The notes under the pieces: generated by a model
The model's input: only the letters and a program-made list of their open reading frames with translations
What the model was told of the DNA's origin: nothing
Database searches by the model: none
Assembly (NCBI RefSeq): GCF_963676275.1
Contig: NZ_OY781091.1
Coordinates: forward strand, 434,001-498,000
DNA length: 64,000 nt
Direction: 5' to 3'
Origin: an uncultured Cohaesibacter sp.
GTDB taxonomy: Bacteria; Pseudomonadota; Alphaproteobacteria; Rhizobiales; Cohaesibacteraceae
Translations under genes and position numbers: made by a program
In this document: positions 1,470-45,181 of the stretch, one piece after another
Position numbering within the stretch: the first letter of the stretch is position 1
Layout of the letters: the number at the start of each line of letters is the position of its first letter

Positions 1470-1524
1470 CGCCTGTTGCGAAGAGCGCACGCAAATAATT
1501 TGAACATTTAAGAGGAACAGCCCC

Positions 1525-1956
1525 ATGAATCCTGATGATATCGAATTTCAGAAAATCGAGCTTGATGAACCGGTTACGCCACCTCCCGCCGCCAAGGAGA
1601 AGGAAGAGGCAACCCCGACACTGGCCGATTTTTCCAAAACGGCAGAGGGTGCGACCACCTTTGGCAACACCATCAAGTCCGATCGCAATCTCGACAATAT
1701 CCTGAATATTCCCGTCGATATTCAGGTGGTTCTGGGCTCCGCCTCGATGCTGGTCTCAAATCTGCTCAAGCTCGGGCGCGGGGCGGTCATTCCCCTTGAT
1801 CACCGTGTCGGAGAGCCGGTTGAAGTGGTGGTCAATGGTCGCGTCGTGGCGCGCGGTGAGGTCGTCGTTGTGGAAGATGACAATTCCCGCTTCGGTGTTT
1901 CGCTGACGGAAATTGTTGGCTCGGGCAACCTGACCAAGCAGGAATCCATCAATTGA
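1525..1956 (+). CDS. fliN: FliN, flagellar motor switch protein
   Basis: FliN forms the bottom of the C-ring with FliM and helps dock the export ATPase complex. The protein has 143 residues. A Pro/Glu-rich, poorly ordered N-terminus (1-50) precedes a SpoA domain (about 60-135) with the family signature NIPVDIQVVLGSASM and the GRGAVIPLDHRVGEPVEVVV strand region. The ATG at 1525 has an AAGAGGAA ribosome site about 7 nt upstream. The N-terminal extension is longer than in enteric FliN but usual in Alphaproteobacteria. It lies between the DUF6468-like gene and fliG in one probable operon. Confidence 0.93.
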   Translation: MNPDDIEFQKIELDEPVTPPPAAKEKEEATPTLADFSKTAEGATTFGNTIKSDRNLDNILNIPVDIQVVLGSASMLVSNLLKLGRGAVIPLDHRVGEPVEVVVNGRVVARGEVVVVEDDNSRFGVSLTEIVGSGNLTKQESIN

Positions 1957-2078
1957 TGCACACCGCCCTCGATGCCTGATGGCATTTGAGCGTGCTTTTT
2001 GAACCCGTTGCATATGCCGAGGGGCAGGTCCGTCGGAATTGCCAAATAAGAAAATAACCAATTCGATAGAGGTGTGTC

Positions 2079-3128: not shown

Positions 3129-3184
3129 GGCGCTGCTCCCGGGCGGGGTGGCCCGCTGAGGCCACAATGTTCAAGTGAGAAACA

Positions 3185-11638: not shown

Positions 11639-12606
11639 TACTTGCCTCCCTCACTGGGCGCAGCGTCCGGCGCAAGGGCCAGACGGCGGCAACTGTCCGA
11701 ATAGCGTTCCATCGCTTCTGCTTCTTCGGGGCGATAGCGTTGCAGCCTTGTGAAAAGGTCGTCGAAATCGACCTGATGGCCATCGAAGTCTGGCCCGTCA
11801 ACGCAGGCGAACTTGATCTGGTCGCCGACCTTGACGCGACAGCCGCCGCACATGCCGGTGCCATCCACCATGATCGGATTGAGGCTGACCATTGTCTTGA
11901 TACCATGAGGGCGCGTGGTTTCCACGCAGGCGCGCATCATGATCGGGGGACCTATGGCAACGACTTCGTCGACATCCGGATTCTGCTTGATCGCCTCTTC
12001 GATGCCCTGTGTGACAAGCCCCTGAATGCCCGCAGAACCATCATCGGTGCAGACGATGAAGTCATCACAGATGGCGCGGAACTTGTCCTCCCAGAACATC
12101 AGGTTGCTTGAGCGGAAGCCAAGCACGCCGATCACATGGGCACCAGCCTCCTTGAAGGCCCGCGCCTGCGGATAGATGGGCGCAATACCGAGCCCGCCGC
12201 CGACACAGATAACCTTTCTGGTGTTGCCCGAAATGTCGCTCGGAATGCCAAGCGGGCCGAGCATCGCATAGACCTCGCGTCCCGGTTTGCATAGCAGCTG
12301 CATCTCCCTTGTGGATTTGCCAACCGCCTGCACGACAAGCGTTATGGTTCCCCTATCCCGGTCGAAATCGGCAATGGTGAGCGGGATGCGCTCGCCAAGC
12401 TCATGCAGCATGACAATGACGAACTGACCGGGCCGGGCCGCGTTTGCCATCACTGGATGCTCTATTTCGACAAGGAATGTTGACTTTGAAAAATCGGTGC
12501 GCGTCAGGATTGGAAAAGATGCGGTGACACCCTTTCCGGACCCGTTCTGCCTATTTGCGGCAGACAAATCCTCCTCGCGACCGCTGGCGACCCCGCGATC
12601 GGACAT
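11638..12606 (-). CDS. NfnA-like ferredoxin-NADP reductase subunit with [2Fe-2S]
   Basis: This protein has 322 residues. It belongs to the FNR-like family that includes NfnA, sulfide dehydrogenase subunit B and PyrK. An FAD domain (about 30-125, ending in RxxxLTIADFD-like sequence), an NAD(P) domain (ICVGGGLGIAPIYPQ, about 140) and a C-terminal [2Fe-2S] site (GTGMCGGCRVKV with a distal FACVDGPDFDG) are visible. The ATG at 12606 has GGGGAGGA 5 nt upstream. It is the first gene of a five-gene operon running to 4925. An FNR/FixK-type palindrome at 12712-12725 and an inverted repeat at 12641-12661 lie upstream. Confidence 0.86.
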   Translation of the reverse strand: MSDRGVASGREEDLSAANRQNGSGKGVTASFPILTRTDFSKSTFLVEIEHPVMANAARPGQFVIVMLHELGERIPLTIADFDRDRGTITLVVQAVGKSTREMQLLCKPGREVYAMLGPLGIPSDISGNTRKVICVGGGLGIAPIYPQARAFKEAGAHVIGVLGFRSSNLMFWEDKFRAICDDFIVCTDDGSAGIQGLVTQGIEEAIKQNPDVDEVVAIGPPIMMRACVETTRPHGIKTMVSLNPIMVDGTGMCGGCRVKVGDQIKFACVDGPDFDGHQVDFDDLFTRLQRYRPEEAEAMERYSDSCRRLALAPDAAPSEGGK

Positions 12607-30739: not shown

Positions 30740-31666
30740 GAATTGTCGGGAATCTGGCCGTTTTGTTGAGATGATGCGGTATTCTTCCTGATGAGTGAAA
30801 CGTCCATCAGCCAGAAGAAGAAACGCTCCAACAGCGAATCATTATTTCGGTTTCAGGGCAGGGCTTTGGCATGAAATGCAAGGCAAAGAGAGTGATTCGT
30901 CCATGAAAATGGGCGAATCAATGGCTTTGTCTTCGTAGTTTTTACAGGCACGAAGGCAGAGAAGACGCAATAATTCTGTGCAGAAACCCCGTTTCAGCCA
31001 TGGTGAAATGAATCCGAATTCATGTGAAAATATGTTCAATTGTTTCTATAATTGTCTGTGTCTATCCAAAAGTAAATTCGCGTATAAATTGAGAAAAATT
31101 AATAGTCTGGTAACTATTTCAACCGACTTCCTAATTCAGTTAGGAACGCCAAATTTAGTGCATCTAGGCCTGAAGGTGATTTGAAGAATTACCGATAATT
31201 TTTCAATTTTGATATATAGAAATAATAATTTTGAATTAAATTTTGATAAATATAAATTAATCAAGATGTAAAAAATTCATGCAGATACATGCAATATTTA
31301 ATATGAGAAAATATAATTATTTTCGTAAATAATATACTTAGATAAAATCAAATCTATCTATTAATAATATTGACAATAAAATAAATTGAATTTCGTGAAA
31401 TATTTTTAAAACAGTTTAGAATTTTCTGAGAATAATATTTGATGCATTTTTGTAATTATATTTCGTGTGTTTTCTTAAGAATAGAGATTATCACTTTTTA
31501 CTAGGCAAAAGATTCCCGGCAAAAAGCAGATTTTTCCTAGAAAAACACAGAAATAAGCTGAAAAAAAACTTATAGTTACACGCCCGAAAGAGTTCGGTAC
31601 AACGTTTTATAAGTAGGAAGAATTTTGTGAGGTGACTTCTTAGCCCGAACGTTGATGGACTGAACA
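30740..31666. other. Long A+T-rich intergenic region upstream of the ECF sigma gene
   Basis: No supported gene. From about 31050 to 31620 the sequence is strikingly A+T-rich compared with the flanking genes. It contains a 12-bp stem with a GAAA loop (30893-30920), a 7-bp inverted repeat (TTCCTAA/TTAGGAA, 31128-31146) and the sigma-gene promoter candidate (31581-31607). A 27-codon frame at 30791 lacks a ribosome site. Confidence 0.5.
31581..31607 (+). promoter_or_regulatory. Candidate ECF promoter of the sigma gene itself
   Basis: CGCCCGAAAG at 31581 and CGTTTT at 31603 reproduce the two-box element found before three flagellin genes and flgD. The first C to the G of GTT is 23 nt, as for flgD. 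It lies 63 nt before ATG 31667 (78 before ATG 31682). Autoregulation is inferred. Confidence 0.5.
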
Positions 31667-32323
31667 ATGAAGAACGCAACCATGCAATCTGTTTCACAAT
31701 CGGACATGCCAGAAACGGTTTCGACAAAGTCGCAACTGCTGCAGGCGCGTGATCTGGTTGCACTTGGTGATGACGAGTTGCTTGGTCTGATCGCTCTTGG
31801 ACAGGAAGAGGCATTTCAGGCGCTGGTAGAGCGTCATATTGATCGCGGTTATGCCGTCGCCTACCGGATTTTGCAGGATGGCCCCGAGGCCGAGGATGTC
31901 CTGCAGGATGCCTTCATGCAGGTCTGGACCCGTCGCGGCAGCTGGAAGGCCGGACGTGCCAAATTTTCCACCTGGCTTTTCAAGGTGGTGACGAACCGCT
32001 GCATTGATCTCTTGCGCAAGAACCGCACCTCCACAATGGAAGAGCTGCCGGATCTGAAAGACGACAGTTCCAATCAGTCCGCCGTGCTGGAAATGCAGGA
32101 GGCCATCGACCTGCTCGAAGACGCCGTTGCGCAGTTGCCCGATCAGCAACGCATCGCAATCGTCTTTTCCTACAATGAAAATATGAGCAACAGTGAAATT
32201 GCGGAAATCATGGATACCAGTGTTTCCGCCGTTGAATCCTTGCTCAAGCGCGGACGGCAGAAATTGCGTCAGATACTCAAGCGCCACAGCGCCGATATCC
32301 TTTCGTTGTTTACGCAAGCTTAA
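31667..32323 (+). CDS. ECF-type RNA polymerase sigma factor next to flagellin genes
   Basis: This 218-residue protein has sigma region 2 (about 45-120: FQALVERHIDRGYAVAYRIL, AEDVLQDAFMQVW, FSTWLFKVVTNRCIDLLR) and sigma region 4 (about 150-205: LPDQQRIAIVFSY, MSNSEIAEIMDTSVSAVESLLKR). It has no regions 1 or 3, so it is an ECF (group 4) sigma factor. The N-terminal 40 residues are an extension. ATG 31682 is an alternative start. It sits 138 nt upstream of a flagellin gene. A shared two-box promoter motif precedes it, three flagellins and flgD, which suggests it directs late flagellar genes. No anti-sigma gene is adjacent. Confidence 0.9.
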   Translation: MKNATMQSVSQSDMPETVSTKSQLLQARDLVALGDDELLGLIALGQEEAFQALVERHIDRGYAVAYRILQDGPEAEDVLQDAFMQVWTRRGSWKAGRAKFSTWLFKVVTNRCIDLLRKNRTSTMEELPDLKDDSSNQSAVLEMQEAIDLLEDAVAQLPDQQRIAIVFSYNENMSNSEIAEIMDTSVSAVESLLKRGRQKLRQILKRHSADILSLFTQA

Positions 32324-32352
32324 GCAAATTTCCTTCTAGACAGAAATATTTT

Positions 32353-32380
32353 CGCCCGATTTTGGCAATGCCCTGCGTTA
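32353..32380 (+). promoter_or_regulatory. Candidate ECF promoter, flagellin 1
   Basis: CGCCCGATTTT (32353) and CGTTA (32376) with 24 nt from the first C to the G of GTTA. The start codon is 84 nt past that G. Between the boxes is GGCAATGCC, shared exactly with the flagellin 3 site. Confidence 0.6.
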
Positions 32381-32460
32381 GAGTTAGTGAGCGCGGCAGG
32401 AGCGGTTGTATCTGAATTTGTGCGACTGTCTTGCGGTTTTACGCAGTGAGGAGTTTGAGC

Positions 32461-33675
32461 ATGCCTGTAATTTCGAGCAATATCGCCGCCAATATGGCCG
32501 TGCGCTATTTGAACAAGAATTCAGACCGGCTTTCGGACTCCATTTCCAAATTGTCCAGCGGGTCGCGCATCTCCAAAGCCTCCGATGATCCCGCCGGTCT
32601 GGCCATCGCCAGCGGCATGTCGTCGGATCTGGCAAGTCTGGAGCAGGCCTCAACCAATGCCTCCAACAGTCTGGCCCTGTTGCAAACGGCCGATGGCGGT
32701 GCGGAGGCTATTTCGGAAATTCTGGAGCGCATGAAGAGTTTGGCCTCGCAAGCCGCATCGGGAACGGTGACTGACGACGAGCGCGCCAATATCGAAACCG
32801 AATTCTCGGCTCTGCTGGAAGAGATCGATAGCATCGCAAGCGCCACGCGATATAATGGTGTCAGCCTGCTGGACGGCTCCAGCGACTATTCCGATGATAC
32901 GGTTGAAACGGCAGCTTGCTATAATAGCGGCAACGCCGCAGGTTACAGTGGGGCCGCTTCGGCAGATGACGCTGTGGCTTCCTTTGCGATCAACGGGGTG
33001 ACGGTCACCGTCACCAGCATCAGCGATGGTAGCGCCACGGCGGCGATGAGCGCACAAGATCTCGCGGACGCGATCAACGCTTCGCTGCAGGAGCAGGGCG
33101 AATACACCGTCTCGGCAAGCCTTGACGAGAGCGGCAGCCTCATATTTGAAGGGGTGGAAACCGGCGCTCAGGCCAAGATGGAAATCAGTGACATATCAGG
33201 CGATGCCGGTTTGCTGTCTGCCATGGGGCTTACAGCGGGAGAGACCATCACCGAGCGTGGCAGCTCGATCGAGGCTCTGACCACCGGCGCGAATATTGTT
33301 GTTGGAGCGCAAGGGTCCGATACGATCAACCTGTCCATCCAGTCTCTGACTGCTGAGGCGCTCGGTCTTTCTGGTCTGGATCTCTCCTCTCGGGAAGGCG
33401 CGGCAAAGGCTCTCTCCCTGCTTGATGTGGCAGTTGGCTCGGTCGCCGACATGCGGGCCGATCTTGGCGCCACCATGTCGCGGTTTGAGTTTCGCTCAAA
33501 GCAGATCGATACCAGCATCGAAAGTCTCGAAGCGGCTGCATCGGCAATCATGGACGTGGATATTGCCAAGGAAATGGCAAGGATGTCTTCCGAGCAGGTG
33601 CGCGTGAAAGCTGCTGCGGCTGCCGTGGCCCAAGCCAACAGGGTGCCTCAATATCTGCTGAAATTGCTAGAATAG
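32461..33675 (+). CDS. Flagellin (divergent paralog 1)
   Basis: This is a filament subunit. The 404 residues have the conserved flagellin N-terminus (MPVISSNIAANMAVRYLNKN, SSGSRISKASDDPAGLAI) and C-terminus (MSRFEFRSKQIDTSIESLEAAASAIMDVDIAKEMA, ending VPQYLLKLLE). The Ala/Ser/Asp-rich middle holds a variable domain. The ATG at 32461 has AGGAG about 9 nt upstream; the frame extends further but without a ribosome site. It is clearly less similar to the next two flagellins than they are to each other. It contains one Cys (ETAACYNSG). Confidence 0.92.
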   Translation: MPVISSNIAANMAVRYLNKNSDRLSDSISKLSSGSRISKASDDPAGLAIASGMSSDLASLEQASTNASNSLALLQTADGGAEAISEILERMKSLASQAASGTVTDDERANIETEFSALLEEIDSIASATRYNGVSLLDGSSDYSDDTVETAACYNSGNAAGYSGAASADDAVASFAINGVTVTVTSISDGSATAAMSAQDLADAINASLQEQGEYTVSASLDESGSLIFEGVETGAQAKMEISDISGDAGLLSAMGLTAGETITERGSSIEALTTGANIVVGAQGSDTINLSIQSLTAEALGLSGLDLSSREGAAKALSLLDVAVGSVADMRADLGATMSRFEFRSKQIDTSIESLEAAASAIMDVDIAKEMARMSSEQVRVKAAAAAVAQANRVPQYLLKLLE

Positions 33676-33893
33676 ACCAGATACTCCGCAGGTGACTGTA
33701 GCCTTGGAGCGCCTGATGCTAAGTGTTCTGCTGTCTGGGATTGATGTTTGTGACAAGGGTGAGAAAAAATACCGAGCGTATCTTTGAGTATCCCTCGTTC
33801 CAAATGAAGCTGTTAATCAAAATTTCTTCTGTTGCTATTTGCAATGCGCAACGCAAAAACTGAATTATTTATTTACCAAGTATTGGTCTGTTG

Positions 33894-33909
33894 TTAATAC
33901 TTCGTTAAC
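33894..33909 (+). promoter_or_regulatory. CtrA-type box 1 upstream of flagellin 2
   Basis: TTAA-TACTTCG-TTAAC matches the CtrA consensus TTAA-N7-TTAA exactly. CtrA controls motility genes in many Alphaproteobacteria. Confidence 0.5.
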
Positions 33910-33998
33910 TATGAATTTTGCTCTGAAATCAAAGGAAAAGCCCGGATTTTTGCGGAAGAGGCGCAAAAGTGTGAGGTTCCGGCGATATGACTTTATAG

Positions 33999-34013
33999 TT
34001 AACAAAGGCTTAA
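33999..34013 (+). promoter_or_regulatory. CtrA-type box 2 upstream of flagellin 2
   Basis: TTAA-CAAAGGC-TTAA is a second exact match to TTAA-N7-TTAA, 30 nt before the ECF-like first box. The A+T-rich context raises the chance of coincidence. Confidence 0.45.
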
Positions 34014-34042
34014 AGGGTTAAAAAATAAAGTAAAATAAATCT

Positions 34043-34070
34043 CGCCCGGTTTTTCTGTCCTGGCTCGTTA
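34043..34070 (+). promoter_or_regulatory. Candidate ECF promoter, flagellin 2
   Basis: CGCCCGGTTTT (34043) and CGTTA (34066), 24 nt from the first C to the G of GTTA. The start codon is 80 nt past that G. Confidence 0.6.
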
Positions 34071-34146
34071 CAAGAATAACGCGTGAAGTAACGCACTTTT
34101 CGGCACTGTAACGTGGAGCCAATTTTTTCGAGTCAGGATATCAACC

Positions 34147-35322
34147 ATGCCAGTAATCTCTACCAACACAGCTGCAAACACTGCAGTGCGCTATTTGAAC
34201 ATCAACTCTGATGATCAATCAAACTCCTTGGCCAAGCTGGCCAGTGGTTCTGCCATCAACAAAGCCTCTGACGATGCTGCAGGTCTGGCTATCTCCACCA
34301 AGATCGGCACCGACGTTGCCGCACTGGAACAGGCCTCCACCAACGCCTCTCACGCCGTATCGGTTCTCTCCACCGCTGACGGTGGCGCGTCCAACATCTC
34401 CGATATCGTCGAGCGCATGAAGACCCTGGCGTCGCAATCGGCATCCGGTACCGTGACCGACACCGAGCGCGCCTACATCCAGGCTGAATTTGAAGAACTG
34501 CAGGACGAAATTGACGGTATCTGCGAATCCACCCGTTACAACGGCCAGAGCCTTCTGGACGGTTCCAGTGATTTCGCCGTTGACGATACCGAAACCGCTG
34601 CAACGGTAACTGGCGCCTCTGCTGATGTGACTGGTTTGACCGCCGATACCACTGGCACTATCATCATCAACGACATTGAGATTACGCTCTCGACCGACGA
34701 TGCCACGATGACCGTTGATGAAATGGTCGATCAGATCAATTCGGCTCTGAATGATGAAGGCGAATATACCATCGTCGCCTCCAACGAGTCCGGCACCCTG
34801 ACCTTGACTTCACTGAGAACAGGTGACGAGGCCGAGATCACCGTTGAAGCTGGTACCGGTACTTTGGGTATTGGAACGGTTGGGCTGACGGCTGGTACGA
34901 CGAATGGTACGACCACCGAAGTGGAAACCACCGGCGCCGAGATCGTTGTCGGTTCCACCTCCGCCGATACCATCAATCTCTCGATCGCTACATTGACCTG
35001 TGAGGCGCTGGGGATTGACGAGCTGGATGTGTCGACAGAGGAAGGGGCGGCAGAGGCCTTGTCGGTTCTCGATATGGCTATTGATCAGATTTCAGCTGCG
35101 CGTGCCGAGCTTGGTGCAGAAATGTCCCGTTTCGAATTCCGTTCGGCACAGATCGACACCAGCGTTGAAAACCTTGAAGCCGCTGAATCCGCCATTGCCG
35201 ACGTGGACATCGCTGCTGAACAGGCCAGCCTGTCTTCTTCATCCGTCAAGGTGCAGGCAGCTGTCGCCGCCGCAACGCAGGCCAACGAAATGCCGCAGAA
35301 CCTGCTCAGCCTGGTCCAGTAA
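34147..35322 (+). CDS. Flagellin (paralog 2)
   Basis: This is a filament subunit of 391 residues. The N-terminal D0/D1 region (MPVISTNTAANTAVRYLNIN, LASGSAINKASDDAAGLAIS) and C-terminal D1/D0 region (MSRFEFRSAQIDTSVENLEAAES, ending MPQNLLSLVQ) are intact. The Thr/Asp-rich middle forms the variable domain. It is nearly identical to paralog 3 over long blocks at both protein and DNA level, so the pair reflects a recent duplication or gene conversion. It has two Cys (DGICESTRY and LTCEALG), which is unusual for a surface filament protein. A terminator follows. Confidence 0.95.
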   Translation: MPVISTNTAANTAVRYLNINSDDQSNSLAKLASGSAINKASDDAAGLAISTKIGTDVAALEQASTNASHAVSVLSTADGGASNISDIVERMKTLASQSASGTVTDTERAYIQAEFEELQDEIDGICESTRYNGQSLLDGSSDFAVDDTETAATVTGASADVTGLTADTTGTIIINDIEITLSTDDATMTVDEMVDQINSALNDEGEYTIVASNESGTLTLTSLRTGDEAEITVEAGTGTLGIGTVGLTAGTTNGTTTEVETTGAEIVVGSTSADTINLSIATLTCEALGIDELDVSTEEGAAEALSVLDMAIDQISAARAELGAEMSRFEFRSAQIDTSVENLEAAESAIADVDIAAEQASLSSSSVKVQAAVAAATQANEMPQNLLSLVQ

Positions 35323-35364
35323 TAAACTGATGGTTGGCTTGAGCTGGTAAAGATTGAAAATCAA

Positions 35365-35399
35365 AAAGCCCCGGCCTTCTTCGCAAGGTCGGGGCTTTG
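35365..35399 (+). terminator. Terminator after flagellin 2
   Basis: AAAGCCCCGGCCTT pairs with AAGGTCGGGGCTTT (one G-T pair) around a 6-nt loop. There is no long T run after the stem's own TTT. Confidence 0.85.
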
Positions 35400-35766
35400 G
35401 TAAACAAAATCTTTTCAAATCTCTTGAGCAATAGAAAAGTAAAGACTGCATGCGCATCAGTATTTACTTCGCATTAAGTACAAAAGAGTGTTCCTTGAAA
35501 ATAGTTTTGGCAAATTTTGAGGCAACTTCGACAAGGGAAATTAAGGAATTTCCCTCGGGTTTCTTTGAGATTTTACCCGCAATCCTTAATGGCTGGGGGT
35601 GGGGCTATCCTATTTTCGTTGATGGGGAGTTAACTGGCAAAGGAATTATTGAAAATAAATCTCGCCTGAATTGGGCAATGCCCTGCGTTACAGAAACAAG
35701 GCGCGAGGAAAAGCGTCATTCCGCAAGTTCAGTAACGCGGCTATCGTTTAGTTCAGGAGTTCGACT
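35400..35766. other. Intergenic region before flagellin 3
   Basis: No supported gene. A 108-codon open frame from 35450 runs through the promoter element and into the flagellin start, so it is not believable. The region holds the ECF promoter candidate at 35663-35690. Confidence 0.5.
35663..35690 (+). promoter_or_regulatory. Candidate ECF promoter, flagellin 3
   Basis: CGCCTGAATTG (35663) and CGTTA (35686), 24 nt from the first C to the G of GTTA. The start codon is 80 nt past that G, the same distance as for flagellin 2. Confidence 0.6.
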
Positions 35767-36942
35767 ATGCCCGTAATTTCCACCAATACCGCAGCCAACA
35801 CCGCTGTTCGTTATTTGAATTCTAACTCTGATGATCAGACCAACTCTCTCGCCAAACTGGCCAGTGGGTCTGCCATCACCAAGGCCTCTGACGATGCTGC
35901 AGGTCTGGCTATCTCCACCAAGATCGGCACCGACGTTGCCGCACTGGAACAGGCCTCCACCAACGCCTCTCACGCCGTATCGGTTCTCTCCACTGCTGAC
36001 GGTGGCGCTTCCAACATTGCCGACATCGTAGAACGTATGAAGACCCTGGCATCGGAATCCGCATCCGGTACCGTGACCGATACCGAACGCGCCTATGTAC
36101 AGGCCGAATTTGAAGAATTGCAGGAAGAAATTGACGGTATCTGCGAATCCACCCGCTATAACGGCGTCAGCTTGCTTGATGGCTCTAGTGATTTCGCGGT
36201 TGATGATACAGAAACGGCCGCTGTTGCAACTGGCGCCTCTGCTGATGTGACTGGTTTGACCGCCGATACCACTGGCTCTATCATCATCAACGACATTGAG
36301 ATTACGCTCTCGACCGACGATGCCACGATGACCGTTGATGAAATGGTCGAGCAGATCAATTCGGGTCTGAATGATGAAGGCGAATATACGATCGTCGCCT
36401 CCAACGAGTCCGGTACCCTGACCCTGACCTCTCTGGCAACTGGTGATAATGCCGAAATCACCGTTGAAGCTGGCACTGGTACTTTGGGTATTGGAACGGT
36501 TGGGCTGACGGCTGGTACGACGAATGGCACGACCACCGAAGTAGAAACCACCGGCGCCGAGATCGTTGTCGGTTCCACCTCTGCCGATACCATCAATCTG
36601 TCCATCGATTCTCTGACTTGTGAGTCCCTGGGTATCGCGGATCTCGATGTGTCTACCGAGGAAGGGGCTGCTGAAGCTCTGTCCGTGCTCGATATGGCCA
36701 TTGACCAGATCTCCGAAGCACGCGCTGAAATTGGTGCGACCATGTCCCGTTTCGAATTCCGTTCGGCACAGATCGATACCAGCGTTGAAAACCTTGAAGC
36801 AGCCCAGTCGGCAATTGCTGACGTGGACATCGCCGCTGAACAGGCAAACCTGTCTTCTTCTTCCGTGAAGGTGCAGGCTGCCGTGGCCGCAGCAACTCAG
36901 GCAAACCAGATGCCTCAGAACCTGCTGAGCCTTATTCAGTAA
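35767..36942 (+). CDS. Flagellin (paralog 3)
   Basis: This is a filament subunit of 391 residues, the same length as paralog 2 and almost the same sequence. Differences are scattered in the variable domain and near the C-terminus (ending MPQNLLSLIQ). The conserved terminal segments for polymerisation and export are intact. Cys occurs in DGICESTRY and LTCESLG, the same two places as in paralog 2. The ATG follows a CAGGAG ribosome site. A 9-bp hairpin separates it from fliD. Confidence 0.95.
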   Translation: MPVISTNTAANTAVRYLNSNSDDQTNSLAKLASGSAITKASDDAAGLAISTKIGTDVAALEQASTNASHAVSVLSTADGGASNIADIVERMKTLASESASGTVTDTERAYVQAEFEELQEEIDGICESTRYNGVSLLDGSSDFAVDDTETAAVATGASADVTGLTADTTGSIIINDIEITLSTDDATMTVDEMVEQINSGLNDEGEYTIVASNESGTLTLTSLATGDNAEITVEAGTGTLGIGTVGLTAGTTNGTTTEVETTGAEIVVGSTSADTINLSIDSLTCESLGIADLDVSTEEGAAEALSVLDMAIDQISEARAEIGATMSRFEFRSAQIDTSVENLEAAQSAIADVDIAAEQANLSSSSVKVQAAVAAATQANQMPQNLLSLIQ

Positions 36943-36956
36943 TGAATATTGAAAAT

Positions 36957-36987
36957 GCACCGGGCCGCTAGCGCAGCCCGGTGCTTC
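36957..36987 (+). terminator. Hairpin between flagellin 3 and fliD
   Basis: GCACCGGGC pairs perfectly with GCCCGGTGC around a 10-nt loop. The following TTCGCCCTTT is a weak T tract, so it may only reduce read-through into fliD. Confidence 0.6.
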
Positions 36988-37010
36988 GCCCTTTGATACG
37001 GAGTTGATAC

Positions 37011-38738
37011 ATGACGAGTACGACCTCTACCACGACCGATTCTTCCGGTACGACGACAAGTACAACGACGACAACCACGTCGACCACGTCATCTGGTATC
37101 AGTACCGTCAGTTCCAGCGCCGATATCGATTGGGATGCTCTGATCGAGGCCGCGGTTGCCGAGAAGCAGCTGCCCGCCGATCGCATCGAAACCAAAATCG
37201 AAGAGAATGAGTCCGAGATTGAAGCCTATGAGGAGATGGAAGATCTTCTCAGTACGCTCCTGGACGCGATTGAGGCCGTTCGCGGCACCGATGATTCTCT
37301 GCTCGAACTGGACGATATCTTTTCCGAACGCGAAGCCTATCTGACCGGCATCGGCGGCATCGAAGCCGAGGATGCGCTGGTCGTTACCTGCGAAGCAGGT
37401 GTTGCTGTCCAGACCTATGAAGTGACGATTTCGCAGCTCGCGCTGGCGCAAAAAGTCACCAGCACGGTTGAATGTGAAGACAGCACGGCTGACATGGGGA
37501 TCGAGGGCACTTTCACTCTGACAACGAGTGAATCCGAAAATGACCCGGTGGAAATTGAAATCACCGAAGATATGAGCATGGCTGAAATCGCCGAGGAGAT
37601 CAATAACTACACCGATGATTCCGGCGTCACTGCCACTGTGGTTCAGGTTTCGGATACCGAATATACGCTGGTCCTGACGGGGGAAACCGGACAGAACATC
37701 GAGATGGCCTCGACCGACGGGACGGACGTAGGTGTTGCACTGGGCATCGTAGACGAAGATACAGGCGAATTTTCCAGCGTTCTTCAGTCATCTCAGGATG
37801 CGGTCTTCTCGGTCGACGGCGTTGAGCTGACCCGTAACACCAACACGATTGATGACGTGATTGATGGTGTTACTTTCGCTCTTTATCAAACCACCGACGA
37901 TGGCGAGTCCATCTCCGTGGAAATCAGCCAGTCGCTTTCCGATATCAAGGAAGCGGTTGTTGCGTTGGTGGATGCCTACAACGCCTATCGCGAATGGGCT
38001 CTGACTCAGCAGGAAACCGATGCCGATGGCGGTGCATCGGAAGATGCCGTTCTCTTTGGTGACAGCCTGCTGCGCGGGGCCAACAATTCCATCTATGCCG
38101 CCCTCTCCACGGTTATCGACGATTCGAGCATGGCCGTACTCGGCCTGTCCTATGATGAGAATAACTATCTCGAGCTGGACGAGGATACCCTTAACGACGC
38201 GCTTCTGAACGATATTGATGCGATCGAGGATCTGCTGAATTTCCAGTATGAAACGAGCGACAGTGATCTGGCTCTCCTTAAACGCAATGACAATATGCCC
38301 AGCTCCTTCACGCTCGACATCACGGTTGAGGACGGTGAGGTGACAAGTGTGCTCTGCGATGGCGAGGAGGGCTGCTTCGAGGTGAGCGGCACGCGTATCG
38401 TCGGTGTCGAGGGCACGGATTATGAAGGCATCACCTTCGTTTATACCGGCGATGACAGCGATACGATCGAGTTTTCCTGCTCCGCAGGCATTGTCGAGGA
38501 ACTCTATTCTGCCGTCGCAAAATATGCGGACGAAGACGACGGTCTGATCGTCGCCCAGATCGAAACGCTGGAAGAGCAGAACGAAGATTACGAAACCGAA
38601 TATGAAGACATCATGGACACCGTCGACGCCTATGAAGAGCGTTTGACGACACTATACTCCGAATACCAAGCGGCAATCGAAGAGGCAGAGAACGATCTCT
38701 CCTATATCGAAGCAATTCTCAACTCCGGGAGCGACTAA
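37011..38738 (+). CDS. fliD: FliD, filament cap protein (HAP2)
   Basis: FliD caps the growing filament and helps flagellin fold into it. The 575 residues begin with an unusual Ser/Thr run (2-35). The FliD N-terminal domain follows (IDWDALIEAAVAEKQLPADRIETKIEENESEIEAY), then very acidic middle domains and a C-terminal coiled coil (about 500-575). The ATG has GGAG 7 nt upstream. The fliS gene begins 1 nt after the stop. It contains five Cys residues, odd for an exported axial protein. Many Rhizobiales lack FliD. Confidence 0.9.
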   Translation: MTSTTSTTTDSSGTTTSTTTTTTSTTSSGISTVSSSADIDWDALIEAAVAEKQLPADRIETKIEENESEIEAYEEMEDLLSTLLDAIEAVRGTDDSLLELDDIFSEREAYLTGIGGIEAEDALVVTCEAGVAVQTYEVTISQLALAQKVTSTVECEDSTADMGIEGTFTLTTSESENDPVEIEITEDMSMAEIAEEINNYTDDSGVTATVVQVSDTEYTLVLTGETGQNIEMASTDGTDVGVALGIVDEDTGEFSSVLQSSQDAVFSVDGVELTRNTNTIDDVIDGVTFALYQTTDDGESISVEISQSLSDIKEAVVALVDAYNAYREWALTQQETDADGGASEDAVLFGDSLLRGANNSIYAALSTVIDDSSMAVLGLSYDENNYLELDEDTLNDALLNDIDAIEDLLNFQYETSDSDLALLKRNDNMPSSFTLDITVEDGEVTSVLCDGEEGCFEVSGTRIVGVEGTDYEGITFVYTGDDSDTIEFSCSAGIVEELYSAVAKYADEDDGLIVAQIETLEEQNEDYETEYEDIMDTVDAYEERLTTLYSEYQAAIEEAENDLSYIEAILNSGSD

Positions 38739-38739
38739 T

Positions 38740-39192
38740 ATGAATTATGCACATAATCGTGCTGTGAATGCCTACCGAACCGCCAATGCCGCAGTGCCGC
38801 CAGTCAAGGCGGTTGCAATGTTGCTTGATGAAGCCCTGAATGCCATCATTCTGACCAGCTACTATCTCAAACGCAAGGAATTCGAAAGCGCGTTCGGCCG
38901 TGTCGTGCATGCGTCCAAAATTCTCAGTGGTCTGCGCCAGAATGTCAGCCTTGATCGGGACCCGGAAATGGGACAGCAGTTCATTGACATGTATACGAGC
39001 AATATCTTTGCTCTGCACAACGCCTATGGTCGCGACGACGCCATCGAAAGATATGCAAAACTTGCGGGTGGTATTCTCGAATTCCGCAATGCATGGGCAG
39101 AATTGGCAAGAATGCAACAACGAAGCATTGACACCGTTATGGGCGGGATCTTACATCAGGATGATGCAGAGGTGACTGCAAAAGCGGGATAG
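38740..39192 (+). CDS. fliS: FliS, flagellin export chaperone
   Basis: FliS binds the C-terminus of unfolded flagellin in the cytoplasm until export. The 150 residues are all helical. The N-terminus (NRAVNAYRTANAAVPPVKAVAMLLDEALNAI) resembles the FliS signature, and charged helices follow. It starts 1 nt after fliD, the classic fliDS arrangement, which supports the call more than the sequence alone. Confidence 0.85.
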   Translation: MNYAHNRAVNAYRTANAAVPPVKAVAMLLDEALNAIILTSYYLKRKEFESAFGRVVHASKILSGLRQNVSLDRDPEMGQQFIDMYTSNIFALHNAYGRDDAIERYAKLAGGILEFRNAWAELARMQQRSIDTVMGGILHQDDAEVTAKAG

Positions 39193-39246
39193 CAGCAGGA
39201 TGATCGGGCTTTGAAGCCATATTGTCCTATGACTGATAGGGCGAAT

Positions 39247-39492
39247 ATGGCCAAGTCCGATGGTGAAATGTCGATCGAGCGGTTTGAAGAGCTGCTGGAT
39301 TCTTATGGCCCGGATTTGACGAATTGGCCGCAAGACGCCCAGTCTGCGGCCAATGGCTTGCTGAAGCGATCAGAAATCGCCAGACAGAAACTGCAATTTG
39401 ATGCAGCTGTTGCCAGACTGGCCAAAGAGGCCCCTGGCCCCAAGGCTCCCCCATCTCTGGTTAATCGGATCATGACCAAAGTCAAGAAATGA
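39247..39492 (+). CDS. Small protein with the 'YGxDxxxWP' motif seen near alphaproteobacterial ECF sigma genes
   Basis: This is an 81-residue soluble protein. Its core, ERFEELLDSYGPDLTNWPQ followed by AANGLLKRSEIARQKL, resembles the N-terminal segment of small anti-sigma-like proteins that often accompany ECF sigma factors in Alphaproteobacteria. No membrane helix is visible here, unlike many of those. I chose ATG 39247; ATG 39229 and TTG 39211 are in frame. It lies after fliS, 7 kb from the ECF sigma gene. A regulatory role is inference. Confidence 0.55.
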   Translation: MAKSDGEMSIERFEELLDSYGPDLTNWPQDAQSAANGLLKRSEIARQKLQFDAAVARLAKEAPGPKAPPSLVNRIMTKVKK

Positions 39493-39937
39493 TCCCCTAA
39501 GGCCCTGCCTTCAGAATAGCGCCTCTAGTCTTCAAGACTATCTCCAATTATCCCATTTCAACTAGGCCAGACACCTATTCATCAAACTGATGAGTGGGAG
39601 TGAATTTCTCGTATATAAATCAATTTCGCGCACTTGATGTTGTTTTATTTGGGGTTGGGTTACGTTTTTGAAGATTATCTAATGTATAATATAGGATTTA
39701 TGGGTGTTATCTGTGCTATTGAATTGGAAATATATTTATAAATTATTTGACTAAATTGATGATAGGCAAAAAATACCTATCGGAAATAAGTATTCGTCAA
39801 ATTTTTACTAAATAAAATTTAAAAAAATTCGCCTGATTTCGCCGGATGGTCCGTTTCAGAAATATGAGGGGTAAAAACTTGTCGTCAAAGACAGGTGTTT
39901 ATCTGGTGTTTTTCTCGAAAAGCGCGGGCGAAAAGCC
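39493..39937. other. A+T-rich intergenic region before flgD
   Basis: No supported gene. A perfect odd palindrome (TAGTCTT-C-AAGACTA, 39526-39540) may mark the end of the preceding operon. From 39590 to 39830 the sequence is A+T-rich. The ECF promoter candidate at 39830-39857 follows. Confidence 0.45.
39830..39857 (+). promoter_or_regulatory. Candidate ECF promoter, flgD operon
   Basis: CGCCTGATTTC (39830) and CGTTT (39852), 23 nt from the first C to the G of GTT. The flgD start is 85 nt past that G. An A-rich tract lies immediately upstream. Confidence 0.55.
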
Positions 39938-40603
39938 ATGACTGTATCTGCACTGGCGTCTTCAACATCAAGTACGACGACAACGACGACCACATCATCC
40001 AGTACTCTTGGTCTGGATACATCCGAATTTCTGCAGCTCATGGTCGAGCAGCTACAGAACCAGAACCCGACCGACCCGACGGATACGACCGAGTTTCTCA
40101 GTCAGCTCGTGCAGCTGTCCACCTACGACCAGCAGGTGGCGAATGCCGAGAGTCTGGAAAGCGTGGTCGACTCTCTGGAGACGATGATCTCATCCAACGG
40201 TCTTGGATATATCGGCCAGACCGTCACCGTCGATGGCGATACCACCACAATTCAGGACGGTTCGGCTCAGTGGAACTACACGCTCGATAGCGATGCCGAG
40301 GAAGTGACCATCAACATTCTCGATGAGGATGGCAACACGGTCTACACCACCACCGGAGAAACCGAGGAAGGCACCTATGCCGTCGAATGGGATGGCGTCG
40401 ATGATGACGGCAACCAGCTCGAGGATGGCGGCATCTACACCATTGAAGTGACCGCCACGGATGCCGACGGTGAGGATGTCGATGTCAGCACCTCGGTTAC
40501 GGGCACGGTCACCGGGATCGATTCCTCCGGAGATGAAACCTATCTGCTGATCGGCGACGTGGGCTTCACCGTCGATGACATTACCTCAATCAGTTCTACC
40601 TGA
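39938..40603 (+). CDS. flgD: FlgD, hook-capping / hook assembly scaffold protein
   Basis: FlgD caps the growing hook and is removed later. The 221 residues begin with a Ser/Thr tract. The conserved FlgD N-terminal signature follows (LDTSEFLQLMVEQLQNQNPTDPTDTTEFLSQLVQLSTYDQQ, about 25-68). The C-terminal half is the mixed Ig/Tudor-like region (EEVTINILDEDGNTVYT, EWDGVDDDGNQLEDGGIYTIEV). It lies just upstream of flgE, the usual neighbour. Confidence 0.93.
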   Translation: MTVSALASSTSSTTTTTTTSSSTLGLDTSEFLQLMVEQLQNQNPTDPTDTTEFLSQLVQLSTYDQQVANAESLESVVDSLETMISSNGLGYIGQTVTVDGDTTTIQDGSAQWNYTLDSDAEEVTINILDEDGNTVYTTTGETEEGTYAVEWDGVDDDGNQLEDGGIYTIEVTATDADGEDVDVSTSVTGTVTGIDSSGDETYLLIGDVGFTVDDITSISST

Positions 40604-40702: not shown

Positions 40703-42028
40703 ATGAGTTTGATGGGTGCAACAAATGCTGCCGTGTCAGGTCTGGCGGCGCAGTCGCAGGCTTTGTCCACGGTTTCCAACAACTTGGCAAACTCTGAAAC
40801 GACAGCATACAAGGCGTCCACCACCAGCTTCTCCAGTCTGGTTGCCGGTAGCGGGGCGACGAAAAGTGGTGGTGTTTCGGCGAGCAATACAACAAACAAT
40901 ACCGCGCAGGGCCTGATCACCGATTCCGATATCGAAACCAACCTCGCCATTGAGGGTGACGGATATTTCATCGTCTCCGAGGAAGGGGACAATTCATCCC
41001 GCTACTATACACGAAATGGCGAATTCAGCGTCGATGAAGACGGCTATCTGACCAATGGGGAATATTATCTTCTTGGTTGGGCGACCGATGCCGATGGTGA
41101 AGTGTCCGGTGGCGCCAGCAGCGTCAACCTGACCAAGATCGACATTTCCTCGATCCAGAGTTCGGCTCAGGCAACGACCGAGGTTGCGATGCAGGCAACA
41201 TTGCCGGCCGATGCAGAAACCTATGTCGATTCAAGCACTGAGAATTGTTCCTTCGAGACAAGCTTCGAAGTCTATGACTCTCTGGGCACGGCAAGCACCG
41301 TAACCGCCACCTATACCAAGGTGGACGAGAATACCTGGACCGTATCCTTCTCCGATCCGGTTTCCGCCGATGATTCCTCGACAACGGGTTCGGTTACGTC
41401 CAGCACCTATACCATCTTCTTTGATTCAGACGGTAATCTCGATCATATCGAAGAAGGTGACTATGACCAGGCAACAGGCACATCAGCGACCGGCACCACT
41501 GTTGATGATGCAACCCTTTCAATCACCTGGAGCACCGGTGCCTCAACCAGCGATATCACGGTCGACCTCGGCACGGCAGGATCTGACGACGGTCTGACCC
41601 AATATTCAACAAACGACTCCGACGACGTGGAGATTGACGTCTCTTCCGTCGATGTCGATGGCCGCCCTTACGGCACCGTTGACTCGGTTGAAATCGATTC
41701 TGACGGCTCTGTTGTCGCCAGCTTCACCAATGGCGAAACAAGAACGATCTACAAGATCGCTATCGCCACCTTCACCAATGCGGACGGTCTGACCGAAGAC
41801 AGCGACGGCATCTACGCGGTTTCCAACGAGTCTGGCAACGCAACCCTGCATATCGCGGGGCAGGGCTCGGCAGGTACCATCGAAAGCAGCTCTCTGGAAG
41901 CCAGTACCGTGGATACCAGTACGGAATTTTCCAACATGCTCGCCGCACAGCAGGCCTATTCATCAGCATCCCAGATCATCTCCACAGCGAGTGACATGTT
42001 CGATGATCTGATGAGCGCAGTACGGTGA
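40703..42028 (+). CDS. flgE: FlgE, flagellar hook protein
   Basis: FlgE polymerises into the hook. The 441 residues have the rod/hook N-terminal motif (MGATNAAVSGLAAQSQALSTVSNNLANSETTAYKA), the SDIETNLAIEGDGYFIV segment and the C-terminal motif (EFSNMLAAQQAYSSASQIISTASDMFDDLMSAVR). The ATG has AGGAGA 5 nt upstream. The middle is rich in Asp, Ser and Thr. One Cys is present (ENCSFET). It is followed in the same direction by a small basic protein and the flgK/flgL block. Confidence 0.94.
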   Translation: MSLMGATNAAVSGLAAQSQALSTVSNNLANSETTAYKASTTSFSSLVAGSGATKSGGVSASNTTNNTAQGLITDSDIETNLAIEGDGYFIVSEEGDNSSRYYTRNGEFSVDEDGYLTNGEYYLLGWATDADGEVSGGASSVNLTKIDISSIQSSAQATTEVAMQATLPADAETYVDSSTENCSFETSFEVYDSLGTASTVTATYTKVDENTWTVSFSDPVSADDSSTTGSVTSSTYTIFFDSDGNLDHIEEGDYDQATGTSATGTTVDDATLSITWSTGASTSDITVDLGTAGSDDGLTQYSTNDSDDVEIDVSSVDVDGRPYGTVDSVEIDSDGSVVASFTNGETRTIYKIAIATFTNADGLTEDSDGIYAVSNESGNATLHIAGQGSAGTIESSSLEASTVDTSTEFSNMLAAQQAYSSASQIISTASDMFDDLMSAVR

Positions 42029-42299: not shown

Positions 42300-42785
42300 A
42301 TGAGCTCCAAACTGAACACTGAGATGGTCCATTCGCAACGGGATATCGAGCGCATTGAAAGCGCTATAGACAGAGCCATTCTTGTGGCTGATGACCTGAT
42401 CAGAATTGCGGCAGAAGAAAATCAGCGGCTGGAAAGCGGCCGTCCCACGTCACTGGATGACCTTTTGGTGAGAAAGCAGAAGCTGACGATGGAATTCGAT
42501 GCCTTCTTCAAGAGTTTCAAAGCCGAACGAGAGACCTTTCTCTATGCGTCGGAAGAGAAATTCAACGCTTTGCAGGACCGGATCCAGATTTTGGCTCATT
42601 CCTTCATGGAAAATGCGAGCAATCTGAACCGTGCCAAGAGTGCCAATGAAAGGCGCATCAGCGCCATCATGCGGGCCATTCGGGACAATCAGGATGCCAG
42701 CGCGCTGCCTTCCTATGGCTCCACCGGACGGTCTGCGAGCGCGGCTTATGCTGCGGGATCGCTCAAGCCCTCCCGCAAGGTATAG
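42300..42785 (+). CDS. FlgN-like export chaperone for hook-associated proteins
   Basis: This 161-residue, all-helical, heptad-patterned protein has the charged, Leu-spaced layout of FlgN (RDIERIESAIDRAILVADDLIRIAAEENQRLE, then LLVRKQKLTMEFDAFFK). FlgN keeps FlgK and FlgL soluble before export. The gene lies directly upstream of flgK, the usual place of flgN. FlgN proteins are poorly conserved, so the call rests on layout and position. Confidence 0.65.
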   Translation: MSSKLNTEMVHSQRDIERIESAIDRAILVADDLIRIAAEENQRLESGRPTSLDDLLVRKQKLTMEFDAFFKSFKAERETFLYASEEKFNALQDRIQILAHSFMENASNLNRAKSANERRISAIMRAIRDNQDASALPSYGSTGRSASAAYAAGSLKPSRKV

Positions 42786-42860: not shown

Positions 42861-44219
42861 ATGTCCTCCCTATCTACTGCGCGTTATATCGCTTCGAGTT
42901 CGCTCTCTGCCACTCAGGTGCAGGTGTCCGTGACCTCGAACAACATCGCCAACGCGGATACGGAAGGCTATACAACCAAATCGGCGTCGGTTTCCTCTTC
43001 CATATCGGGAGGGACGGGCAGCGGTGTTTCCGTTGACAGCATTTCCTCTTCGGTCAGCAAATATCTGGTCGAGGATCTGGTGGAGGCGACATCCGAAGCC
43101 GCCTATGCCACCACTACGGCCGATTATCTCAACAGCCTGCAAACCTCTCTGGGCACGCTGGAAGATGAAGACGGTTCGGGCACGACGCTTGTCGATACCC
43201 TTTCCGACTTCGAAGAGGCAATGACAGAGCTGGCGACCACGCCAGAGAGCAGCATTCTGGCCAATACGGCGGTCACGGCTCTGGAAGAGCTGACCAGCCA
43301 GATCCGCGATACGGCCGAAACCGTGCAGGATCTGATCGACAATGCCGACAGCGAGATCGAGGATGCGGTTGAATCGGTCAACAATCTTCTTGAGAGCATC
43401 GATTCTCTCAATGAGCAGATCAGAACCGCCACCGCCAGTGGCGACAGCACCGCAGATCTGGAAGACCAGCTGACGACAGCCATTGTCAGCCTGTCGGAAT
43501 ATCTCGATGTGGTCACCTATGATTGCGATGACGGCTCCACCAAGGTCTATACCTCCTCAGGACAGATGCTGGTCGGCTCGACGGCCCATCTGCTGACGAC
43601 GGACACCGATGCCGAAGGCCAGACCACGATTTCGGTGAATGGCTCCGATATAACCGAAAGGCTCTCCGGCTCGGACAGCAAGATTGGCGCGTTGCTGGAG
43701 CTGCGCGACGAAACCTTGCCTGCCTATATGGAAGATCTCGATGAGCTGGCGACCACATTGATCGAAACGCTCAATGCCGTGGATGGTCTGGATGGCGACA
43801 TCCTGACGGGCACCGGAGCTTCCGACATTGCGGTGGTGGACAGCGTCTCGGACGATCCGACAACGCTACTGGGCTCGGGCAATGCTTCCACCACGGCCAA
43901 CAATATCCTTGATGCCCTGCAAGGAGATGCCACCTATGATGCCGCAGGCAATCTGGCCTCGGGGGATCGTACCTTCAGCGAATATGCAACCGAAATCATT
44001 TCCACGGCGGTCAACGCCTCCAACAGCGCTTCCGATGCGCTGGATGTTGCCGAGACAGCTCTCAGTTCGGCAGAAGATGCCATCAGCTCTGCCTATGGTG
44101 TCAACGTGGATGAAGAAACAGAACGATTGACGGAGCTGGAACAGCTCTATTCTCTGGCCTCAACCATCTTGAGCACATTGCAGGAGATGTTTGAAGACCT
44201 GCAATCGGCCTTCTCATAG
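42861..44219 (+). CDS. flgK: FlgK, hook-filament junction protein (HAP1)
   Basis: FlgK forms the first junction zone between hook and filament. The 452 residues have the rod-type N-terminus (ARYIASSSLSATQVQVSVTSNNIANADTEGYTTKSA), a long acidic helical domain with the FlgK pattern INxLLxxIdsLNeQI (NNLLESIDSLNEQIRTA, about 172-190) and a C-terminal helix (TELEQLYSLASTILSTLQEMFEDLQSAFS). AAAGGAA precedes the ATG by 7 nt. flgL follows 8 nt after the stop. It is shorter than enteric FlgK. Confidence 0.9.
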   Translation: MSSLSTARYIASSSLSATQVQVSVTSNNIANADTEGYTTKSASVSSSISGGTGSGVSVDSISSSVSKYLVEDLVEATSEAAYATTTADYLNSLQTSLGTLEDEDGSGTTLVDTLSDFEEAMTELATTPESSILANTAVTALEELTSQIRDTAETVQDLIDNADSEIEDAVESVNNLLESIDSLNEQIRTATASGDSTADLEDQLTTAIVSLSEYLDVVTYDCDDGSTKVYTSSGQMLVGSTAHLLTTDTDAEGQTTISVNGSDITERLSGSDSKIGALLELRDETLPAYMEDLDELATTLIETLNAVDGLDGDILTGTGASDIAVVDSVSDDPTTLLGSGNASTTANNILDALQGDATYDAAGNLASGDRTFSEYATEIISTAVNASNSASDALDVAETALSSAEDAISSAYGVNVDEETERLTELEQLYSLASTILSTLQEMFEDLQSAFS

Positions 44220-44227
44220 GTGATCAC

Positions 44228-45121
44228 ATGGCAATGCGCGTAGCTACATTTCAGAGCACCTCCTCGCTGCTGACCAAGACACTGGCCACGCAAGCCAAGC
44301 TGGCCAAGGTGCAGGAGCAGGAATCGACCGGCCTCGTTTCCACCGATTATGGCGGGCTGGGTACCTCCGCCTCTACGGTGCTCGATCTGAGTGCTTCCAT
44401 TTCAACCGCAGAATCCAACATTTCGGCTGCTGAAACCGTTGTCAGCCGCAGTGATACCTATGCCTCGGTGCTCGAGGATATCACCGACCTGTTGACCAAT
44501 GCCCGCAGTGCCGTCTCCGGCACCAGCACCGATGACGAGTTGGAAGACCTGCAGAATGAGGCGGCTGAATATCTGGAAGATCTGGTCCTGCTGCTCAACA
44601 CCCAATATAACGGCCGCTATATTTTCGCAGGCAGTGAAACAGACACTCTGCCGGTTGATATCTCAAGCTATGAAGCGACCGACCTGACCACCGTCAACAC
44701 CGACTATTATCAGGGCGATGACTATACCCAGCTCATTCGGCTCGATAGTGGTACGGAAGTGGAATATGGCGTGACTGCCGATCTGGAAGGCATCGAACAG
44801 GCCATGCGCGCCTTGTCCTATCTGGCCAATTCCACGACCCTGACGACCGATGATCTCGATGATATCGACGATCTGCTTGTTGACGCGCAGGACGCGATCA
44901 TTACCGCGACGAGCAAGGCTGGCAGCGTCTCCGCAAGGCTGGAATCCTATATTGAGAATGAAGAGGATTTCATCGCCACGGCACAGGAACTGGCAACCGA
45001 TCTGACATCGGTTGATGTGGCCGCCGCCGCAGTGGAGGCGACCGCCTATGAAACCCAGCTGGAAGCGAGTTACTCCGCCTTGAGCACCCTGCTCAATCTC
45101 AGCCTGGTCGACTATCTCTAA
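44228..45121 (+). CDS. flgL: FlgL, hook-filament junction protein (HAP3)
   Basis: FlgL is the second junction protein, next to the filament. The 297 residues are flagellin-like at both ends: AMRVATFQSTSSLLTKTLATQAKLAKVQEQESTG at the start and VDVAAAAVEATAYETQLEASYSALSTLLNLSLVDYL at the end. The GRYIFAGSETDTLPV segment (about 135-150) is a FlgL hallmark. It is the last gene of the rightward flagellar block and is followed by a strong terminator. Confidence 0.92.
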   Translation: MAMRVATFQSTSSLLTKTLATQAKLAKVQEQESTGLVSTDYGGLGTSASTVLDLSASISTAESNISAAETVVSRSDTYASVLEDITDLLTNARSAVSGTSTDDELEDLQNEAAEYLEDLVLLLNTQYNGRYIFAGSETDTLPVDISSYEATDLTTVNTDYYQGDDYTQLIRLDSGTEVEYGVTADLEGIEQAMRALSYLANSTTLTTDDLDDIDDLLVDAQDAIITATSKAGSVSARLESYIENEEDFIATAQELATDLTSVDVAAAAVEATAYETQLEASYSALSTLLNLSLVDYL

Positions 45122-45144: not shown

Positions 45145-45181
45145 AAAAAAGAGAGCGCAAGGGGCTTGCGCTCTCTTTTTT
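45145..45181. terminator. Bidirectional terminator between flgL and the D-hydroxyproline dehydrogenase gene
   Basis: GAGAGCGCAAG pairs perfectly with CTTGCGCTCTC around GGG, with six A on the left and six T on the right. It can serve the converging genes on both strands. Confidence 0.92.

Follow-up and report, generated by a model that had tools for sequence, protein, structure and literature searches.

Which sigma factor transcribes the filament genes of a flagellar cluster that itself begins with a gene for a sigma factor of the extracytoplasmic function (ECF) family? We address this question in a window of 64,000 nt from the genome of an uncultured Cohaesibacter sp. (single contig NZ_OY781091.1 of 5,033,865 bases, positions 434,001 to 498,000), in which an ECF factor is encoded at 31667..32323 (plus strand, as are all features below unless stated otherwise). 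The sequence-only reading had inferred that this factor transcribes its own gene, three flagellin genes and flgD from one type of two-box promoter. The explanation that we favour, with a probability of roughly 0.7, is that the gene encodes the RpoE6-type sigma factor of a hook-and-filament kit, which a homologue of the Azospirillum brasilense protein Asf6 would restrain, and which a regulator belonging to another flagellum of the same genome (type A) would switch on.

The five two-box sites were found exactly where they had been read: before the sigma gene (31581..31606), flagellin 1 (32353..32379), flagellin 2 (34043..34069), flagellin 3 (35663..35689) and flgD (39830..39855), each being a putative ECF promoter by pattern, conservation and profile. 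The letters are CGCC-N18-CGTT at the sigma gene and flgD and CGCC-N19-CGTT at the three flagellins, so that CGCC to GTT spans 23 and 24 nt respectively, the two distances given earlier. The start codons follow the end of CGTT by 60 nt (sigma gene), 81, 77 and 77 nt (flagellins 1 to 3) and 82 nt (flgD), close to the previous estimates, and the DNA ahead of each site is indeed A/T-rich (76-96% A/T in the 25 nt 5' of the box). A search of the 64 kb for CGCCYGR-N14..20-CGTTW, controlled with 100 shuffles, returned 5 matches where 0.51 were expected, and none of the shuffles gave five or more. Genome-wide there are 29 matches, and 5 of them are gathered within 8.3 kb of the 5.03 Mb, every one upstream of a member of this single cluster. 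The looser copy reported before flgE at 40613 is present as far as its letters go; its supposed promoter role stands at chance level (3.1 bits, E 9.8 under a model trained on other genera only), and a CGCC-N18..26-CGTT pair was found in none of nine genomes in the 300 nt 5' of flgE.

In these nine genomes, the pair CGCC[CT][GA]-N16/17-CGTT stands 5' of the sigma gene, of every flagellin gene and of flgD (33/33 sites), which supports the inference that the ECF factor would be autoregulated and would transcribe the flagellins and flgD. The spacer sorts by class, being N18 at all 18 sites of the sigma gene and flgD and N19 at all 15 flagellin sites, and CGCC, CGTT and an A three bases 3' of CGTT are invariant over the 33 sites. 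The sites also agree with the form CGCCxG-N16/17-CGT(T/G), taken here as that of RpoE6-type promoters, the G being present in 32 of 33 (the flgD site of L033 has A). The motif search of relatives that had been proposed as a check bears the proposal out: in the eight relative loci all 28 plus-strand matches of the pair lie at these cluster promoters, and the minus strand has 3. A profile model built from the 33 sites recovered the five sites in their own genome with E 2e-9 to 4e-5 (next match, E 0.08), and gave 30 strong sites (E 0.0036 or better) in eight genomes, L033's genome being left out, every one of them inside the cluster; this confinement supports the same inference further. With a model trained on 18 Stappiaceae sites only and filters off, the window sites ranked 1 to 5 in the 64 kb (E 8e-5 to 0.21).

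The sigma protein (218 aa) has ECF regions 2 and 4 (Pfam Sigma70_r2, 71.3 bits; Sigma70_r4_2, 60.3 bits), and its closest named relatives are from Cohaesibacter (94 and 91%), followed by Roseibium/Labrenzia and Pannonibacter (63-73%). An unrooted tree of 44 ECF proteins (43 different), picked by similarity and with context judged for most rows from flanks of about 1.5 kb, separates 18 rows of flagellar context (two of them identical), which include the window protein and RpoE6 of A. brasilense, from 26 others with branch support 100/98. By sequence and tree position, the window factor is an orthologue of Azospirillum RpoE6. In A. brasilense, RpoE6 drives fliC2 from a -35 box CGCCAG, 16 nt and a -10 box CGTGAG; the start site was mapped, and deletion of the boxes abolished activity (PMC12826043). 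This dependence of a flagellin promoter on the orthologous factor supports the same role here, and it also means that the kind of regulator, an ECF factor for flagellin, is already known: ECF control of filament genes, called unusual in the sequence-only reading, has a precedent since 2025 (PMC12826043). In A. brasilense (strain MTCC4038) and A. lipoferum we found CGCCAG-N16-CGTG 5' of both fliC2 and flgD; the flgD pair lies about 156 nt (L178) and about 148 nt (L056) 5' of that gene, a candidate RpoE6 target there. Assignment to the ECF16 group was considered and rejected: that group recognises (T/C)GTAAC-N17-CGAA and has a six-helix DUF1109 anti-sigma factor (PMC8315932), and both the window promoter and its hydrophilic 81-aa partner differ. 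At a threshold of E 1e-40, the ECF profile matched a protein in 90 of the 289 genomes searched from this class, flagellar and other ECF factors mixed; among the best 30 loci inspected, 7 (own genome included) show flagellin or fliD in the short flanks. Three genomes belonging to the same taxonomic order had no match to the ECF profile.

The sigma gene and flgD appear to share a second control element. An alignment of the region 5' of the sigma gene showed a conserved block whose core is the palindrome TAGGCAAAWWWTTCCTA; its letters were taken from three Cohaesibacter genomes, and matches were judged against shuffles. In the window, copy 1 (TAGGCAAAAGATTCCCG, 31502..31518, matched in 9/9 genomes) and a partial copy 2 (31523..31539, 14/17 matches) precede the sigma gene, and TAGGCAAAAAATACCTA (39763..39779, found by element search) with a degenerate second copy (39794..39810, 14/17 matches) precedes flgD. 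Over the nine genomes, the palindrome occurs at 18 of the 18 sigma-gene and flgD promoters with p 0.04 or lower (12/12 outside Cohaesibacter) and at none of the 15 flagellin promoters (lowest p 0.14); at several promoters it is repeated, with two or three copies spaced by about 21 or 31 nt. It is also present 5' of one of the two fliF genes of these bacteria. The genome encodes two FliF proteins, type A near 3.99 Mb and type B at 422 kb, and in eight of eight genomes the palindrome stands before type-A fliF (13-16 of 17 matches; Cohaesibacter 16/17, p 0.005; Stappiaceae 13-14/17, p 0.01 to 0.08), whereas the best score 5' of type-B fliF is 9-11 of 17 in seven of seven genomes, and the type-B loci L045 and L046 gave no match of at least 14. 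In the own genome, it recurs before flgB/fliO and between fliI and a ctrA-like response regulator gene, where two copies were seen (L128:2631 and L128:2725). A set of 59 other 3-kb loci of this genome, fetched for another purpose, contained 10 matches of at least 14, of which 9 were the module's own and 1 was elsewhere. On the UR115 plasmid (L055), three palindrome-like copies at 11741-11812 precede a sigma gene at which the CGCC/CGTT pair was not found.

The type-A FliF run also holds fliK, flgD, fliN, FlhA and an FlbD-like protein, the latter named by its domains (a sigma-54 activator domain and HTH_8) and its position. FlbD of Caulobacter is a repressor of fliF and an activator of later genes, and FlbD is the leading candidate for the palindrome's binder here. 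The sign of its action is the point at which an alternative survives best: the palindrome might be a repressor site, keeping, for example, the kit off in most conditions. Its placement 54-96 nt from the type-A fliF start codon is compatible with repression. At the sigma gene and flgD, however, the best copy starts 37-90 nt 5' of the -35 box, and positions well 5' of that box are usual for activator sites; we hold repression of the kit to be the less likely sign, and activation the preferred one.

The genes served by these promoters appear to form a set of outer flagellar parts. After the three flagellins (32461..33675, 404 aa; 34147..35322 and 35767..36942, 391 aa each; all with Pfam matches, Flagellin_N/C in the first) come the filament cap FliD (37011..38738, Pfam FliD_N/C), the chaperone FliS (38740..39192, Pfam FliS), the Asf6 homologue, the hook cap FlgD (39938..40603, Pfam FlgD), the hook protein FlgE (40703..42028, Pfam), a FlgN-like chaperone (42300..42785; Pfam FlgN at 20.7 bits, under the cut-off of 30.5, its position being kept in the relatives that reach there), FlgK (42861..44219, Pfam FlgK_D1) and FlgL (44228..45121, named by its position after flgK, the Pfam match being Flagellin_N/C). 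The order sigma, flagellin(s), fliD, fliS, asf6 homologue, flgD, flgE is kept in eight of eight relative loci, and flgN, flgK and flgL come next in all six that are long enough to show them; linkage of the sigma gene to fliC, fliD, fliS, flgD, flgE, flgK and flgL is a further trait shared with RpoE6-type loci. Of the three FlgD proteins encoded in this genome, two accompany the FliF genes (at 1.7 kb from type A and at 12 kb from type B) and the third is inside this module; there are also three FlgE, about 30% identical to one another, in the stretches examined. A search for FliD and FliS elsewhere among the flagellar regions, over 124 kb of this genome, found no match. The number of FlgD equals that of FliF plus one in seven of eight genomes, and in G293 a weak third match to FliF (98 bits, 279-aa frame) brings the two counts level. 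From the FlgD surplus it follows that the module brings hook, junction, filament and cap and apparently no MS ring, so that it would need the basal body of another flagellum.

Which basal body this would be is suggested by the palindrome: being common to the kit and type-A fliF and not found before type-B fliF, it ties the kit to type A. In addition, a Pannonibacter draft genome has the kit, two FlgD and a sole FliF, of the type-A score class. Mounting on the type-B basal body, or on both, is unlikely in the face of these two observations, and what speaks for it is neighbourhood and an undecided hook: the type-B cluster, which holds its own flgE, flgK, a flagellin and an flgL-like gene, lies directly upstream, and the module FlgE is about equally far from both other FlgE proteins. 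Within the window, fliM, fliN, fliG and flhB at 2-4270 are apparently the tail of the type-B cluster, which starts before the window. Type A thus remains the preferred partner.

The Asf6 homologue (39247..39492, 81 aa), named by its homology to A. brasilense Asf6 (36% identical over 72 aa; E 1e-9, 11 sequences being compared), is a candidate soluble anti-sigma factor that would oppose the ECF factor, by analogy with the A. brasilense protein. In A. brasilense, Asf6 binds RpoE6 and opposes it (PMC12826043). A homologue is present in eight of eight relative loci (seven in the first search; the L037 copy was read by eye and then found). The window protein is hydrophilic (highest mean hydropathy over 19 residues, 0.08), and its AlphaFold model predicts three helices (mean pLDDT 77, pTM 0.46). 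Asf6-like domains also start longer proteins adjoining non-flagellar ECF factors: of 26 such loci, 19 had a match and 6 none (L059 was dropped as a member of the query set), and 17 of the 19 proteins, two of them from overextended open reading frames, carry a segment with mean hydropathy of at least 1.6. At the flagellar-clade loci, 12 of the 15 proteins with an Asf6-like match have no hydrophobic segment, which is why the soluble form can be said to accompany most flagellar clusters, A. brasilense included. Three flagellar-clade ECF factors near fliD (L095, L096, L098) have an Asf6-like neighbour with a strong hydrophobic segment, and L092 and L094, also of this clade, gave no Asf6-like match. 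Two non-flagellar ECF loci with a periplasmic-sensor-like gene nearby (L057, L058) resemble the module in that the neighbour protein starts with an Asf6-like domain; they differ in that this neighbour has 153-188 aa and a hydrophobic segment and the factors lie on the other side of the tree, and neither locus matched the module's flagellar genes.

A small opposing protein beside a dedicated filament-gene sigma factor recalls sigma-28 (FliA) and FlgM of enteric bacteria, and Asf6 could in principle leave the cell through the hook once this is complete, so that the sigma factor would become available to late genes. The small size, the hydrophilic character, the three predicted helices and the missing hydrophobic segment of the window protein would suit such a checkpoint. 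Yet flgD, and by the presumed read-through flgE, would share the sigma factor of the flagellins, so that waiting for this hook would be circular, and a hydrophobic segment is present in the version found at three of the 15 flagellar-clade loci; a checkpoint at hook completion, as with FliA/FlgM, is thus unlikely here. The module further differs from the enteric system in having an ECF factor without a FliA match over the cut-off, another promoter, and flgD in the regulon.

A sigma-28 gene elsewhere in the genome had been named beforehand as something that would speak against the ECF factor. None of the six sigma-70 region 2 genes found reaches the cut-off of the FliA/WhiG family TIGR02479 (189.6 bits; window ECF 32.2, genome's best 106.2). 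Sigma-54 promoter boxes (TGGCAC-N5-TTGC) were above chance at none of the nine module genes and at two of ten other flagellar genes (type-A flgE, p 0.03, and type-A fliK, p 0.01; uncorrected). That FliA, sigma-54 or RpoD transcribes the genes and that the boxes are incidental is thus hardly credible against the 33 conserved box pairs, even though RpoD-like matches in the region number 19 against a shuffle mean of 12.4 (sd 3.2). Both negative results again favour the ECF factor.

From gene content, promoters and their conservation, palindromes, copy numbers and orthology, all features of the DNA itself, and from the sigma-dependent flagellin promoter and the Asf6-RpoE6 interaction that A. brasilense supplies by analogy (PMC12826043), we infer operon read-through, activity of the circuit in this organism, the identity and sign of its regulator and the basal body used. 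The ECF factor would bind the promoter of its own gene, that of each flagellin and that of flgD, all of the form CGCCYGR-N15/16-CGTT, and the flagellin promoters would need the sigma factor only. The third flagellin promoter would serve fliD, fliS and asf6 through read-through, and the flgD transcript would likewise carry flgE, flgN, flgK and flgL as far as a terminator-like hairpin of 17 pairs 3' of flgL (45145..45181). Asf6 from the third-flagellin transcript would then restrain the sigma factor, so that a positive autoregulatory loop would come under negative feedback. A regulator that belongs to the type-A flagellum (FlbD is the first candidate) would act at the TAGGCAAA-TTCCTA palindromes that stand 5' of the sigma gene and of flgD, thereby deciding when the kit is turned on. 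For mounting, the kit would use a basal body that is already there, in all likelihood that of type A. Going one step further, the module may be an exchangeable outer-flagellum kit, an ECF circuit under the resident flagellum's regulator that swaps hook, junction, filament and cap without a new motor; this we advance tentatively, as an idea that falls short of even odds.

Several observations weigh against this explanation. The bare pattern is not enriched genome-wide (29 matches, 60 for the reversed control), and the promoter signal is read from the concentration of its matches in the cluster. The 33-site model was trained on the sites that it recovers and scored 150 of the 428-889 first-look candidates per genome; the Stappiaceae-trained model gave the sigma-gene site E 0.13 and the flagellin-2 site E 0.21, ranked the fifth window site level with an unrelated minus-strand site and, under default filters, reported 3 of the 5. 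The distant UR115 cluster has a box pair (with CGTG) at its flagellin alone and none at its sigma gene or flgD, and the L094 sigma gene also lacks it. In A. brasilense, no promoter was found before rpoE6 and the factor has metabolic targets too (PMC12826043), and the circuit therefore differs between lineages. The palindrome letters were set after all 18 upstream regions had been viewed, so that the held-out test was not blind, and the core was relaxed from WWA to WWW between the promoter test and the later scans. Before fliF, three of the five Stappiaceae reach only p 0.055-0.08, and within the 64-kb window alone the palindrome is not significant. Its occurrence between fliI and the ctrA-like gene makes a binder other than FlbD possible. 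Finally, G293 has the third, weak FliF match.

Compared with RpoE6-Asf6 of A. brasilense Sp7, the fliC2 box spacing equals the N18 class of the window. The A. brasilense sigma gene is second to last and without a promoter of its own, whereas here it is first and has its own site; asf6 directly follows the sigma gene there and follows fliS here; and the window has three flagellins, a flgD site, flagellin spacers 1 nt longer, and palindromes at two promoters (PMC12826043). The consulted sections of that report make no mention of a promoter site at flgD (PMC12826043). It also cites RpoE10 (ECF41) of A. brasilense Sp245, another ECF factor acting on flagella in an alphaproteobacterium, which is said to control motility and lateral flagella; by that description alone, it is set apart by its ECF group and by having no canonical anti-sigma factor (PMC12826043). 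Nearly the same gene order as here (sigma, fliC, fliD, fliS, two hypotheticals, flgD, flgE, hypothetical, flgN, flgK, flgL) was noted in the same source for Bradyrhizobium, Rhodopseudomonas and Magnetospirillum, reported there as synteny only (PMC12826043).

The kind of regulator is thus known; what appears to be new at this locus is the arrangement, in which the regulon is wider and another control element is added. New are the regulon as a hook-and-filament kit, in which the third FlgD of this two-FliF genome lies, and the palindrome common to the sigma-gene and flgD promoters and one fliF type, which we did not meet in the literature searched. What had been reported in one species, an ECF factor serving one minor flagellin, is thereby widened to a conserved regulon with a readable promoter code, and a common DNA element links this regulon to the resident flagellum. 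Whether a second hook and filament re-dress one basal body can now be tested. The two spacer lengths, 18 and 19 nt, and the palindrome, which some promoters have and others lack, are mutable handles on the order and strength of expression.

Flagellins 2 and 3 (34147-36942) are 93% identical, and flagellin 1 is about 54% identical to both; we read the pair as a recent duplication or gene conversion. Terminator-like hairpins in the region number 24 against 15.3 expected. A strong hairpin of 12 pairs, 10 of them G-C, lies between flagellin 3 and fliD (36957-36984, listed on the minus strand); it might be an attenuator or a site of mRNA processing, and so set the ratio of flagellin to cap.

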